Notes under the pieces: generated by a model | The model's database searches: none | What the model saw: only the letters and a program-made list of their open reading frames with translations | Told to the model about the DNA's origin: nothing | Program-made: the position numbers and the translations under genes | In this document: positions 2,404 through 32,190 of the stretch, piece by piece | Layout of the letters: the number at the start of each line of letters is the position of its first letter | Position numbering within the stretch: position 1 is the first letter of the stretch | Origin: a virus | DNA length: 35,628 bases | IMG/VR virus record: IMGVR_UViG_3300049218_000158 | Coordinates: 1-35,628 of that record | Direction: 5' to 3' (one strand)

Positions 2404-4446
2404 ATGTCAATTACTACAACTGGCAATTTAGGACCAATGATTTTGCAGAGTTTAGCTCCTGCAATGCTTTATGTTCTTACGCCAACAATGAACTATATCT
2501 TAGTCTGCGACAAGGTCAGTATGCCTGCTAATGGCGGTACTACTTGCAGATTTATGAGACCAAGAGCTCTACAACCACCTACTGTTCAACTTGGTAATAG
2601 TGGTATTGATCCCCCAGCCCAAGTACCGCAACGAGACATCATCGATGCGCAAATGTCCTTCTTCGGAACTGGCTGCATTAGTGATTGTGCAGCAGCTTAA
2701 TAGCCAATTGAATCAATGAGCAAGTCATTTTGCAAGATCAAGAGGGTGTTCTCGCTTGGGTCTCAGAAAGATTAGCCGTGGCTATGAGACAGGCTTAAGA
2801 TAATAGGCCTGTATAAATTTAACCTGATTGACTTGGAAACCCGATGGGGCAACAAGGGCCAAGGGTTTAATTACTAGGAGTAAAATGTTCGAAATCTGCT
2901 TTAAGAAAGCCTTTAGCATTAAGACGACACATCTGGACTCGAATATCTTCACGTATGTTGATGGTTTCGATATCCAAAGGTGTATGGGCTCCAAATCCCC
3001 TTTGAGTGTAGGTGGATCTAAACTCAAGGATGAGTTCACATTGTCGTTTTTTGAGCACAAGATATGGAAGAATTTGGGTGCAAATATCCACGAGCCTATG
3101 GCCCTGGATGAGCCACTCGTAAATCCATCTATCATGTGTAGAGTTTTTCTTGAAGATAGAACGCTTATGTTTTTTAGATTTATGGTTCAAATTGGAAAAA
3201 TGTTCTTCAATCCAATCAAAAAGTTCTTTTTTTGTATTGGAAATATTGAGAACGGATCGGAAGTTAGGAGTTTGATATCTATTATATTTGGCAGGATTGA
3301 CCCTGTAAATACAGAGAGATCCTTCTCCATCGACGATACCAGCAAGGTAAGCCAATTTAAGAGGATCATAAATCACCTTTTCATAGGGGATTTCAGGCAT
3401 AAATATACTTCTTTGTTTTGTGTGTAGATGTAATGACATTGTCACATAAAACAGATTAAATGTCTAGGCTGAACGAGTAAGCGGTTAAACTCTGAAAAGG
3501 GATGCGGTACTCTGAACTCGGACAATAGATGAAATCCGAGAGGTTGGCAGAAATGACCAATCCACTATCAAGACGATAGTCATAATGATAGGGGTAACAG
3601 AATGGAAGATCTGATCCTCCGTGACTACATTGTCTCAGCTGCAACAGAAATTAATGCTGGTGGCGGCTCTAACAATGATAATCCAACTAACTTAGGAGTC
3701 TCTGACTTCTCATTGGTTGCGACTACACTCGATAAACTTTGTGTCGAGTATAAATCTTCGATAATTGACTTGGAGTTCCTCGCTGCGTAAGCAGACGGAT
3801 AACAAGGGGCAAGCAGAGAAATCGTGCAGCCTGAGAGACTAAATTCGAAGACCCGAAAGGGAAGCGATAGTCCAAACTGTATAGAGATATACAGAGGTGG
3901 CAGAAATGACCACCCGCTTAAATAACGTTTTTGTTTATTTGAGTCAATAAGTAATAGATATTGACAAACAATGCTTATAAGTTTGTAAGCGGTATTGAAG
4001 GTATGGATCGATTCGGTACAGGTCCTGTACGCAGTGCATATTTTATGCTCAGCTCTACAGAACTACAAACTGATTTCGATAGTTTAACTGGTCAAGGATT
4101 CTTGAATCAGTGGAACTATCCAAGTAATGAAAATGCTCTTCCTAGCGAATATGGTTCGGTTTATAACATTCGAATCTTAACTAGCTCCGAAGCGCCTGTT
4201 GCTAGAAGTGCTTCTGCAAATAGCAGAGACGTCTACTACAACACTGTAGTTGGAAAACAAGCAGTAACGCATATCAACCAAGACGGTTATTCGATGAATT
4301 TGATTTATCGTGATCCATATTATTCTGGTATGTTAGCTCAAAATGCAACTCTTGCTGTGAAGTTTGCTCAAGCGCAAGCAATCACTCAGGATACTGCTAT
4401 CAGAAACCTGCTCTGTACAAGAGCTGCAAACTTAAGTGGGGTATAA
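2404..4446 (+). CDS. Major capsid protein, N4-gp56-type, split gene
   Basis: Coat protein that builds the icosahedral shell. The inferred coding parts are 2404-2670, 2712-2795, 3605-3733 and 3958-4446, about 322 residues. Reading across the introns restores a continuous coat protein: VAMRQA joins EDLILRDYIVSAA, and VATTLD joins ILTNNAYKF. Conserved-looking pieces include SDFSLVATTLD, FGTGPVRSAYF, EYGSVYNIR and the C-terminal INQDGYS and KFAQAQAI. The ribosome site is AGGAAA before ATG 2404. Both introns sit between complete codons. The frame is also broken between 2671 and 2711 by a short hairpin segment described separately, so without a recoding event the first part would end at 2700 as a 98-aa fragment. 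Family assignment comes from the recalled pattern of N4-gp56-like coat proteins. Confidence 0.85.
2670..2714 (+). other. Frame-breaking hairpin segment inside the capsid gene
   Basis: The coat frame runs to Thr (2668-2670) and resumes in another frame at Ile-Asn-Glu-Gln-Val (2712 on). All three frames are blocked or lead nowhere between: frame 1 stops at 2698, frame 2 at 2717, frame 3 at 2679. The segment folds as a stem: TGGCT (2670-2674) pairs AGCCA (2702-2706), then after a two-base bulge ATTA (2677-2680) pairs TAAT (2698-2701), with a 17-nt loop. An Ile codon ATT at 2677 and an Ile codon ATC at 2712 could serve as take-off and landing sites for a ribosome bypass, giving GTGCI-NEQV. A small insertion scar or sequencing indels are alternatives. 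Confidence 0.55.
2796..3604 (+). ncRNA. Group I self-splicing intron 1 of the capsid gene (809 nt)
   Basis: P1 sets the 5' splice site: exon ACAGGCT (2789-2795) pairs with the guide GGCCTGT (2806-2812), with the hallmark U-G pair at the cleavage base T2795. The intron ends in G3604, after which GAA GAT restores the coat frame. The P7 strands are GAGTA (3475-3479) and TACTC (3508-3512). A P9-type stem is CTCGGA (3517-3522) with TCCGAG (3535-3540), followed by a stem GGTTGG (3542-3547)/CCAATC (3557-3562) with loop CAGAAATGA. Core motif AACAAGGGCCAAG lies near 2850. The loop between core halves carries an endonuclease gene on the other strand. Catalytic folding is inferred, not tested. Confidence 0.87.
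2867..3400 (-). CDS. LAGLIDADG homing endonuclease, antisense within intron 1 (177 aa)
   Basis: Homing endonuclease that would cut intronless capsid alleles and so spread intron 1. One LAGLIDADG motif is visible near the N-terminus (LAYLAGIVDGEGSL, about residues 15-28), where the acidic residue of GEG is the expected metal ligand. No second copy of the motif is evident, so the enzyme probably acts as a dimer, although a diverged second half is possible. The chosen start is ATG 3400, where the protein reads MPEIPYEK; an upstream in-frame ATG at 3445 adds 15 residues. The gene runs opposite to its intron and host gene, so it needs its own promoter, which was not identified. Confidence 0.85.
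   Translation of the reverse strand: MPEIPYEKVIYDPLKLAYLAGIVDGEGSLCIYRVNPAKYNRYQTPNFRSVLNISNTKKELFDWIEEHFSNLNHKSKKHKRSIFKKNSTHDRWIYEWLIQGHRLVDICTQILPYLVLKKRQCELILEFRSTYTQRGFGAHTPLDIETINIREDIRVQMCRLNAKGFLKADFEHFTPSN
3734..3957 (+). ncRNA. Group I self-splicing intron 2 of the capsid gene (224 nt)
   Basis: A minimal group I intron with no open frame of its own. P1: exon ACTCGAT (3727-3733) pairs with guide GTCGAGT (3743-3749), leaving the U-G pair at T3733. P7: GACTA (3837-3841) with TAGTC (3868-3872). P8 is CCC-GAAA-GGG (3852-3861). P9 is CTGTATA-GAGA-TATACAG (3877-3894), a GNRA-capped stem. P9.1 is GGTGG (3896-3900)/CCACC (3910-3914) with loop CAGAAATGA, the same loop as in intron 1. The intron ends at G3957, and ATA TTG ACA AAC continues the coat frame. 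Splicing removes the in-frame stop at 3788. Confidence 0.9.
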
Positions 4447-28113: not shown

Positions 28114-29223
28114 TCAATCCTTATATGGGTCATAATCTTTCCCAGAAGCCATGGCTACTCCAATAGGGGTTAAAGTATGTAATATCTTTACTGTTCCTTC
28201 ATGAGCAGCTAATACTTCTTCTATTCTTTTGTATGCAAGAGGGCTTTCGTCAACATCTCCTCCACGCACTTCGGGAGAGAATCGCTGCATGTAAGATTCA
28301 TGCGCTTCTTTTTTGATGAGACCTTCGGTGAGTTGCCTTCCTGTTTTTCTACAGGTCTTTCCTTTGGCTTGAACTCTTCCCATTGCACGGCCTGCTCCAT
28401 GGATTGTTGAATAAAGAGAGGAGGCAGATTCATGGCTGTCCATTCCTTCGAGGATGACACTAATATCTCCCATAGATCCTCCAACAAAGCCTCTTTGACC
28501 CGGAAAGGCTGGAGTTGCACCCTTGCGTATGACCCAGTAATCTTTATCAAAATGTCTTTCTTTCCATGCAAAGTTGTGGTGATTGTGCACTTCCTCAATG
28601 ATCGAGGATCTAAGGATTTGTGCAACTTTTTTGCAAACCCAATCTCGTCCAGCGTAAGCATATCGACCAGCGAGTTCCATGCATTTAATATATTGTTGTC
28701 CGAGGTCTGAATTTTCATCAAAAATGAACGGCTTTGCGTGGATTCCATCTACTCCTCCGGCTGCTCTGACAAAATGCGTAGCAATTGAGTGACCAAGACC
28801 TCTGCTTCCGAAGTGTACCCCGACCCAAATTCTATTTTGCTCATCAACAAAGACATCAACATAATGATTTCCTGAGCCGACAGTTCCGAGCTGATCACGA
28901 GCTCTATCCTTGAGTCCACGAAGCACTTCAATCTCATCCCAGAGTTTCTCTTCAAAAATTGGATTGTCAATTTTTTCATTATTCTTTCTCCCCACTCCAA
29001 AGCTAATATGCTTTTGGATTTCGTTCATGTTACGGTAGATGTTTTCTTTTACTTCTTTTGCATTACAATCCAATAATACAGCCTTATTGCCACATGCAAT
29101 ATCGTAGCCAACGCCATTAACGCAAATAGCACCATCCAAAGCGATAACACCACCCACTGGAATGGAGTACCCCAAGTGATTATCGGCGCACAAAACACCA
29201 TAAGAAGCACTAGAAAGTTCCAT
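28114..29223 (-). CDS. rtcB: RtcB-type RNA ligase (369 aa)
   Basis: RNA-splicing ligase that joins 2',3'-cyclic phosphate or 3'-phosphate ends to 5'-OH ends using GTP and Mn2+. Motifs in order: GVGYDIACG (about 37-45, metal ligands Asp41 and Cys44), GTVGSGNHYVDVF, HFGSRGLGH, HNHHNFAW, RKGATPAFPGQ, GSMGD, and STIHGAGRAMGR with the His that takes GMP. C-terminal DESPLAYKRIEEV is also typical. Size fits a compact phage RtcB. AAAGGAGATCC lies directly before ATG 29223, which overlaps the previous gene by 14 nt. The likely role is repair of tRNAs cut by host anticodon nucleases; this is inference. Confidence 0.93.
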   Translation of the reverse strand: MELSSASYGVLCADNHLGYSIPVGGVIALDGAICVNGVGYDIACGNKAVLLDCNAKEVKENIYRNMNEIQKHISFGVGRKNNEKIDNPIFEEKLWDEIEVLRGLKDRARDQLGTVGSGNHYVDVFVDEQNRIWVGVHFGSRGLGHSIATHFVRAAGGVDGIHAKPFIFDENSDLGQQYIKCMELAGRYAYAGRDWVCKKVAQILRSSIIEEVHNHHNFAWKERHFDKDYWVIRKGATPAFPGQRGFVGGSMGDISVILEGMDSHESASSLYSTIHGAGRAMGRVQAKGKTCRKTGRQLTEGLIKKEAHESYMQRFSPEVRGGDVDESPLAYKRIEEVLAAHEGTVKILHTLTPIGVAMASGKDYDPYKD

Positions 29224-29575
29224 GGATCTCCTTTGAAAAAAAACCAAATTGTGGAGCTTCGTTTAAAACAAATAAATGACGAATGTTAACTACATTGACT
29301 AAACAATCCATAGGAGGGAAGCATTCCATACACCAAGATTGATGAAACCCAAGATTATTTTTAATTTCCTGTAGATCATCCCAAGTAATTTTATCTAACC
29401 ATTTCCCATTTATATGTTGACATCGATTAATAGATAATCTGCTGAAGTTTCCATCTTTATATAATTGAACTAAAAAATGGGGGTTTTTAAATACCTTCAA
29501 AGGAAATGGGTTATATTGCAATTTAGGCAAATTTTCACTAGGGATTTCCTCAAAGTGGTCAGTAATTAGTTTCAT
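29210..29575 (-). CDS. DUF7694-like protein (121 aa)
   Basis: The middle and end (LSINR, then ITWDDLQEIKNNLGFHQSW, CMECFPPMDCLVNVVNIRH) match small conserved proteins listed under DUF7694, of unknown function. GGAG lies five bases before ATG 29575. It is upstream of and overlaps rtcB, so the two are co-expressed. Confidence 0.68.
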   Translation of the reverse strand: MKLITDHFEEIPSENLPKLQYNPFPLKVFKNPHFLVQLYKDGNFSRLSINRCQHINGKWLDKITWDDLQEIKNNLGFHQSWCMECFPPMDCLVNVVNIRHLFVLNEAPQFGFFSKEIHGTF

Positions 29576-30453: not shown

Positions 30454-32190
30454 ATGCAAGCACCTCTAGCTCCGAAACAATTAGAATTTGTATTAAAATC
30501 CACAAGACACTGGAATCTTGCACATGGAAGCGTGCGTTCCGGTAAAACTGTGGGGACGTTATGGCGTTTTATGCAAGCTGCCTATGAATGTCCAGACAGT
30601 CAAATCTTCATGGTGGGACATTCCTCCGATACCATTTATCAGAACGTCATTCGATTAATATTGGAATCTCCACAACTTGCAATTTACCGGCCATTCTGCA
30701 CATGGGAAGCAGGTAAAAGACGCCTGAGATTTAGAGATAAGGTAATCACCACTCTGGGAGCTCGAGATGAAGGTGCTATTGGGCAATTTCAAGGAAAATC
30801 TATGTCACTTGTTTATTGTGATGAGATGACGCTTTATCCCGATTCCATTATTGACATGATTGATACACGCCTTTCATTTAGTCATTCTATGGGGTTTGCA
30901 AGTATGAACCCATCCTATCCTACGCACAAGATCAAACAGTGGATAGACATGGCTGAAGCGGGAGACAAAAACTACTATTCACTCCATTTCAACTTGGACG
31001 ATAACCCTTATGTGGATGAAGATTATAAAAATCGTATACGTCATAGTTTATCTGGCCTTTTTTATAAGCGAAACTATCTGGGTCTTTGGTGCCTCGCAGA
31101 AGGAGCCATTTTCGACTTCTTTGACCGAAAGATGCACATACTTCGTCGTCCTCCTTGCGCTGCTGAGTATTGGATTGCAGGTATTGATTATGGAACGGTA
31201 AATGCTTTTGCCTGTATACTGATTGGAGTTTCAACGGGAAAATACACACAAACTGGTAAGAGAGTATGGGCAGAAAAAGAGTATTTTTGGGATTCAAAGA
31301 AGCAAGGACGACAAAAAACAAATTCTGAATATGCAGATGATGTGGCAGCTTTTCTGGAGCCCTATGCAATCAAGAATGTGTATGTGGACCCGAGTGCTGC
31401 AGCATTCAAGTTGGAATTGCGTAGGAGAGGAATCCATGTAGTAGACGCCAATAATAATGTGGAAGACGGCATACAAATCATGACATCCGAAATGAAGAAA
31501 GGGAACTTTTATGTATGCGAGGATTGTCCCAATCTAATCAGAGAGATTGAGGGTTACGTTTGGGATTCCAAACAGGCAGAACGTGGTATAGACGCTCCGC
31601 TCAAGAAAGACGATCATATTTGCGTAACTGGAGATACTTTAGTTGCTACTAATACCGGATATATACCGATTCGTGAACTTGCTGAAGAAGGTTTTTTTTG
31701 TTGGAATCAAGGAAGTCTTATAAATTACAATTTATCATCAAAACAAATTGAATTAGATGACATGAAAGATGCCTTCCTAACTAAAAAAGACCAAGAAATT
31801 TGGGAGCTTGAGTTAGAAGATGGATCGATATTGAAAGCCACTAAAGATCATTTGGTTTTAACTGAATTAGGCTATATCGAACTGCAATATTTGACACTCT
31901 CTGATATTGTTTCGACATGGACCATCAATACCATTTCTGTTCAAAATCTTTCGCCCAAAGGGGTAAAAATAAAAAGCATTCGTAAAATTGAAGAAAAACA
32001 AGATGTTTATTGTTTATCTACAACAAACGGTAATTTCATAGCAAATGGCATCATTGTAAAGAATTGCGACGCCACTAGATATTGTCTCGCAACTCACAAA
32101 GTCACATCGTTCAATGCAGATGACTATTACCGCAAACAAGAAGAACAACTCAGACAAAAATATCACCCACAAGGATATGGATTTAGATGA
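30454..32190 (+). CDS. terL: Terminase large subunit with intein (578 aa, about 430 after splicing)
   Basis: ATPase-nuclease motor that packages DNA into the head. Walker A is GSVRSGKT (25-32), Walker B LVYCDE (119-124) and a coupling-type motif lies in GFASMNPSY. The RNase H-like nuclease part begins at about 245 (WIAGIDYGTVNAF) with a second acidic site in NVYVDPSAAAFK. The third active-site motif would read KKDDHI-CDATRY, but it is interrupted after Ile389 by a 148-residue intein (390-537). The protein must be spliced to rebuild the nuclease site. A GroES-like gene overlaps its stop, and the portal follows. Confidence 0.92.
   Translation: MQAPLAPKQLEFVLKSTRHWNLAHGSVRSGKTVGTLWRFMQAAYECPDSQIFMVGHSSDTIYQNVIRLILESPQLAIYRPFCTWEAGKRRLRFRDKVITTLGARDEGAIGQFQGKSMSLVYCDEMTLYPDSIIDMIDTRLSFSHSMGFASMNPSYPTHKIKQWIDMAEAGDKNYYSLHFNLDDNPYVDEDYKNRIRHSLSGLFYKRNYLGLWCLAEGAIFDFFDRKMHILRRPPCAAEYWIAGIDYGTVNAFACILIGVSTGKYTQTGKRVWAEKEYFWDSKKQGRQKTNSEYADDVAAFLEPYAIKNVYVDPSAAAFKLELRRRGIHVVDANNNVEDGIQIMTSEMKKGNFYVCEDCPNLIREIEGYVWDSKQAERGIDAPLKKDDHICVTGDTLVATNTGYIPIRELAEEGFFCWNQGSLINYNLSSKQIELDDMKDAFLTKKDQEIWELELEDGSILKATKDHLVLTELGYIELQYLTLSDIVSTWTINTISVQNLSPKGVKIKSIRKIEEKQDVYCLSTTNGNFIANGIIVKNCDATRYCLATHKVTSFNADDYYRKQEEQLRQKYHPQGYGFR
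31621..32064 (+). other. Mini-intein in TerL (148 aa)
   Basis: Starts with Cys (block A, CVTGDTLVATNTGYIPI), has block B with the Thr-x-x-His pattern (ILKATKDHLVLT), block F (VYCLSTTNGNFIANG) and ends IIVKN before extein Cys. The usual penultimate His is Lys here. No endonuclease domain is present, so it cannot home by itself. It is inserted between DDHI and CDATRY of the nuclease motif, where inteins commonly hide from selection. Confidence 0.9.

Follow-up and report, generated by a model that had tools for sequence, protein, structure and literature searches.

A phage coat gene holding two complete group I introns and a 32-nt coreless intron that is probably excised by the core of its downstream neighbor

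The coat gene at positions 2404 to 4446 of the window (the whole stretch of viral DNA analyzed, 35,628 nt, IMG/VR record IMGVR_UViG_3300049218_000158) is interrupted by three introns, at 2679-2710, 2796-3604, and 3734-3963, as determined by translation and alignment to relatives. Our reading is that it holds two complete group I introns (introns 1 and 2) and, ahead of them, one coreless intron that is probably excised by the core of its downstream neighbor. The observations behind this reading are the exact intron positions, compensatory changes in the pairings P1 and P10 of such coreless elements, the absence of a core from them, and the strict occurrence of a complete intron downstream. The gene was translated in all frames and then aligned to its relatives by a purpose-written spliced protein-to-DNA procedure, which gave the following features.

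2404-2678, + strand: coat exon 1a, from gapless alignment to uninterrupted relatives
2679-2710, + strand: 32-nt coreless (guide-only) group I-like intron, with P1, P10, and a terminal G; the pairings covary in relatives
2698-2700, + strand: in-frame TAA reached by ribosomes on the unspliced RNA; the codons ahead of it specify ...DCAAA (ssrA-like C terminus)
2711-2795, + strand: coat exon 1b, 85 nt, from the coreless intron to its presumed helper, by alignment of relatives and spliced translation
2796-3604, + strand: intron 1, 809 nt, a complete group I intron and the presumed helper, both halves found by the covariance model
2867-3445, - strand: antisense LAGLIDADG homing-endonuclease ORF in intron 1, I-MsoI/I-CreI type (PDB I-MsoI, E=9.5e-13; PHROG 5046)
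3605-3733, + strand: coat exon 2, by six-frame and spliced translation
3734-3963, + strand: intron 2, complete ORF-less group I intron, 230 nt, from the covariance model, with its 3' end from relatives
3779-3790, + strand: CTC GCT GCG TAA, the in-frame read-through end of intron 2 (...EFLAA-stop, ssrA-like)
3964-4446, + strand: coat exon 3 and stop, by alignment of relatives (PHROG 1357, major head protein)

Removal of all three introns yields a 323-amino-acid coat protein identical at 307 of 323 residues, with no gaps, to the uninterrupted coat of a relative (L003), and the window holds this single coat copy, with no second intact one within it. A sequence-only reading had described a coat gene in pieces, split by two group I introns. 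Both introns are real, and intron 1, with its U.G pair at the 5' site and terminal G, had been placed correctly; the third, 32-nt insert had been missed. The exon 1 of that reading is not open, since it meets a TAA at 2698 and the frame then resumes two frames on, and its two-intron splice gives a frameshifted, truncated protein. The proposal that the coat is made only from doubly spliced RNA thus gives way to three excisions, translation otherwise ending at the TAA at 2698. For intron 2 the start at 3734 stands and the end moves from 3957 to 3963, as the relatives read TTLD followed directly by TNNAYK, and an end at 3957 would add Ile-Leu.

Introns 1 and 2 each have a P1 with U.G at the 5' splice site and a terminal G at the 3' splice site (3604 and 3963, respectively). 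The pairings are P1 2790-2795/2806-2811, P3 2818-2824/3483-3489, and P7 3475-3479/3508-3512 in intron 1 and P1 3728-3733/3743-3748, P3 3755-3761/3845-3851, and P7 3837-3841/3868-3872 in intron 2, where the bases at the corrected 3' site pair with the guide to form a P10 of 5 bp. A covariance model was built from an alignment of 30 small introns of the family. It matched intron 2, a training-set member, at 3726-3970 with 154.9 bits, and intron 1, which lay outside the training set, in two halves (2790-2910 and 3423-3612, with 44 and 83 bits); these were the only significant matches in the window. In the 30-intron alignment P1, P3, P4, P7, and P8 were paired in 94.2% of cells, changes on both sides of these helices occurred in 178 cells versus 52 in shuffles, and the covariation score was 0.659 versus 0.198 for shuffled data, the signal being abolished by a one-column slide. 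Counting P7 across all introns by regular expression (51/99) was too crude, and this alignment test took its place. A search with Rfam RF00028, suggested in the sequence-only reading, gave no match at either intron, at the gathering score or even at E<=10; the introns are divergent, and an Rfam match is not a defining feature of group I introns. Intron 1 closely matches the capsid intron of mycobacteriophage LittleE (about 820 nt, spliced according to RT-PCR) in size, antisense LAGLIDADG ORF, and U/G splice sites (PMC3706429). LittleE has a single intron with no coreless partner described, and splicing in the window is predicted from sequence comparison. Given the covariation, the model matches, and this shared layout, introns 1 and 2 are group I introns of an already known kind, for which GTP-initiated self-splicing is predicted.

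The 32-nt stub and its flanks read CTGCAT-TAGTGATTGTGCAGCAGCTTAATAGCCAATTG-AATCA. Its P1 (CUGCAU:GUGCAG, 2673-2678/2687-2692) places U.G at the cut, its P10 (UGAUU:AAUCA, 5 bp) joins 2682-2686 to the 3' exon at 2711-2715, and its last base is G, as in group I introns. A catalytic core (P3 to P8) is absent; 32 nt leaves no room for one, and the covariance model gave no match there. Intron 1 begins 85 nt downstream, after exon 1b.

We then surveyed relatives of the coat gene. From three IMG/VR scans and one bacterial-genome scan we obtained 117 unique coat loci, the window among them; the metagenome-assembled genome (MAG) contigs with the coat gene from the latter scan were labeled Chlamydiia, Simkania, and others. 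The coat gene was uninterrupted in 59 of the 116 other loci; the insertion in the window is not due to chance, since these intact relatives show exactly which bases are extra, and insertion points elsewhere were fixed by the same comparison. Coat introns occupy more than 20 positions in this lineage, with up to five or six in one gene, so that their description as uncommon holds for the phages described so far and fails here. Four sites in the coat, after residues 87, 91, 103, and 113, hold 37 distinct stubs of 30 to 79 nt between them. A 42-nt insert in L018 was an alignment artifact and was excluded from the set. A strict stub DNA pattern, applied to IMG/VR, recovered a single contig, and loose patterns gave mostly chance matches.

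P1 and P10 together averaged 12.5 bp in the stubs versus 2.3 in shuffles, with p<0.01 in 36 of 37; kinship among the loci makes p-values here and below overstate independence, the pattern nevertheless repeating at four coat and two portal sites. When stubs were placed on another site's exons none reached 11 bp, whereas 95% did so on their own. At site 87 the third pair of P10 occurs as AU, UA, GC, and CG, and the guides GCCGAA and GCCAAA track the exons TTCGGT and TTTGGT; AU/GC exchange is seen in P1 at site 91 and UA/CG/GC exchange in P10 at site 103. Since the pairs change together with the exons, these comparisons indicate that the stub really aligns both exons, a pairing for which DNA repair scars or ribosome hopping offer no role.

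Seven further coreless elements, all at site 103, are 946 to 976 nt long, and each contains a LAGLIDADG nuclease gene (two-motif, PF00961, E=8e-10) placed after the read-through stop. The TAA stop codon of the nuclease is part of the P10 strand TAACAC, after which come the guide GCCCTC and about 20 nt. In the one such element tested, that of L014, the covariance model found no core, yet it found cores elsewhere in L014. Because these elements hold a homing gene and no core, coreless introns can, judging from their sequences, be mobile in their own right.

Downstream of each of the 44 coreless coat elements (37 stubs and the 7 with LAGLIDADG genes), the next element is a complete group I intron, 24 to 171 nt away (3e-11 for the coreless-to-complete order by within-gene permutation). 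By gene, 40 contained both coreless and complete introns, 17 complete introns only, 59 neither, and 0 coreless elements only (Fisher 6e-18). The four genes with two stubs (L022, L042, L416, and L445) show the order stub, complete, stub, complete. The portal gene repeats the arrangement: three distinct stubs, of 30, 39, and 33 nt (L456, L457, and L523), show both P1 and P10 on inspection by eye and in every case immediately precede a complete intron. The portal genes of relatives L456, L457, and L458 carry complete group I introns; that of the window is intact.

Since every stub stands directly before a complete intron and none occurs alone, the simplest account is that the neighbor's core is used. 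It is most likely that splicing occurs at all and that this core performs the excision of the stub. The stub would retain only the parts that align exons, namely, P1 with U.G at the cut, P10 next to the guide, and the terminal G. The core of intron 1, the next complete intron, would dock the P1 of the stub, and exogenous GTP and two transesterifications would join exon 1a to exon 1b. Intron 1 would then excise itself, removal of the stub before or after the helper's own excision being conceivable in either order. No base pairing between stub tail and helper intron was found beyond chance (mean z 0.1), so recognition and docking would depend on tertiary contacts and proximity. Such chemistry is possible, since engineered group I ribozymes (trans-excision ribozymes and spliceozymes) likewise use a group I core to remove a separate short intron in trans via P1 and 3'-site pairing (PMC4094466). 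Spliceozymes are laboratory constructs that carry the guide in the ribozyme, whereas the phage pair is proposed to be natural, to act in cis, and to keep the guide in the excised stub.

Four other explanations were weighed. It is unlikely that some other factor (a protein of host or phage origin, or an intron excised elsewhere and working in trans) removes the stub and that the neighbor is linked to it by homing co-conversion only. Some relatives do have portal-gene introns, and the phage encodes an RtcB RNA ligase, but the strict immediate-downstream order in both coat and portal genes is not expected if a diffusible factor were sufficient, and complete introns occur without stubs while the reverse never does. 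We find it similarly improbable that the stubs are minimal autonomous self-splicing group I introns, as claimed for 67-nt introns of Phialophora: they share the P1 and P10 logic with an intron for which splicing in vitro was reported (PMC3160393), but at lengths down to 30 nt, with about 15 to 28 nt after the guide, they are too short for P7 or any G-binding site, and 0 of 44 coreless elements occur without a complete intron directly downstream. Ribosome hopping past the stub, of the kind seen with T4 gene 60 or with byp elements of yeast mitochondria, would suit the comparable length range and the stops soon after entry. It is nonetheless very improbable and was rejected: matched take-off and landing codons are missing at site 87 (GGT ... 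ACN, read by eye) while P10 covaries there, covariation of P10 would have no role, co-occurrence with group I introns would be left unexplained, and one site has 970-nt versions with a nuclease gene. A reading of the stubs as scars left by deletion, in genes that are dead or were misassembled, is hardly credible. Their stops and frameshifts do look like those of pseudogenes, and loss of the core from an intron may well be how they arose. Dozens of contigs drawn from many metagenomes have them, however, as do MAG contigs; the remainder of the coat is about 84 to 95% conserved, compensatory change keeps P1 and P10, and the window has one coat copy.

Against these, excision by the neighbor's core is the reading that we retain, and a second regularity concerns what is translated when excision has not occurred. 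In 41 of 44 coreless elements the first in-frame stop follows [AV]A, compared with 2 of 562 other stops; for introns of all kinds with a non-immediate stop the count is 76/111, versus 44/3817 in the control. In the window the stub read-through ends in AAA (...DCAAA) and that of intron 2 in LAA (...EFLAA). Tails ending in LAA or LVA are the classic ssrA type that ClpXP recognizes. The codons of the ssrA-like ends vary (CTTGCAGCATAA, TTAGCTGCTTAA, and ATAGCCGCATAA), which points to the peptide as the target of selection. Twelve stubs at site 87 lack an internal stop, and in all of them reading continues to an out-of-frame stop within the 3' exon (mostly after RLAA or similar); that exon stop is present with 0 of the 8 stubs that have an internal one and in 6 of 56 uninterrupted genes. 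The ending is a tendency and not a rule, as in 31 complete introns the stop is immediate and a tail is absent, and in complete introns the LAA-stop often lies within a GNRA-like hairpin and may be partly structural. Complete introns after residue 123 (L337 and L387) and after residue 89 (L048, L395, and L438) have a 5' end that encodes ..LLAA-stop or similar; guide pairing of normal length was not found within their first 60 nt, and their guide may lie beyond a long 5' insert.

These patterns suggest that translation into coreless introns ends in a built-in degron, with degradation by ClpXP predicted. On this secondary reading, stops after -LAA- or -LVA-like codons would send unspliced coat fragments to ClpXP-type proteolysis. 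The idea that splicing times or limits capsid synthesis found no direct support, and the ssrA-like ends of the unspliced reading would be more in keeping with disposal of unspliced products than with timing. One published explanation of in-frame stops in group I introns is that they shield intron folding from ribosomes (PMC3984707); an ssrA-like tail would add disposal of the coat fragment to that protection and would give a phage a simple means of clearing fragments translated from unspliced RNA. An intron-encoded ssrA-like tag was not found in the literature (open-licence papers).

The nearest precedent for the stubs is a group of small degenerate group I introns of 56 to 81 nt in fungal rDNA (Phialophora, Arthonia, and Porpidia) with P1, P7, and P10 (PMC3160393), and because of these the stubs are not filed as a wholly new category. 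Both kinds are very short, form P1 and P10 with the flanking exons, and lack most of the core. The fungal introns lie in eukaryotic rRNA, have a putative P7, and are not reported with an adjacent helper, whereas the phage stubs lie in protein genes, are 30 to 79 nt long, and are always paired with a complete intron; some phage coreless elements, unlike the fungal introns, also hold a homing endonuclease. Catalytically impaired group I introns in lichen rDNA, which have lost only about 100 nt, resemble the stubs in the loss of sequence essential for catalysis; their removal is reported and attributed to host proteins, whereas that of the stubs is proposed (PMC8527467). A natural coreless intron helped by its neighbor was not found among open-licence papers.

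By definition, a group I intron carries its own ribozyme. Taken together, the sequence comparisons lean toward a natural two-part group I system in which mobile guide-only introns, having lost their catalytic core, are excised by the core of a neighbor and bear in-frame degrons against unspliced coat protein. Among group I introns it would parallel the change by which self-splicing introns gave way to a shared splicing machine, and, if true, natural guide-only introns would show how splicing can pass to a shared catalyst. To our knowledge, group II introns and the spliceosome are the only other case for which such a transfer from each intron to a shared catalyst has been argued. A prediction is that short frame-breaking inserts in phage genes, dismissed as errors, may be spliced, in which case gene callers lose essential genes.

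Another kind of insert, of 47 to 51 nt and usually with a stop inside, occurs after residue 36 of the portal gene in five relatives (L462, L503, L511, L520, and L538). That of L462 folds as a 17-bp perfect hairpin (z -6.7), and the others look alike. Their last base is C and not G, and a complete intron nearby is absent; they are a class apart from the stubs and could be a bypassing element or a palindromic repeat. The window has no tRNAs. Its RtcB-type RNA ligase gene (28114-29247, - strand; PF01139, E=3e-69) is unusual company for an intron-rich phage, and its terminase large subunit (30454-32190) contains an intein splicing domain at residues 404-537 (PF14890, E=3e-12).
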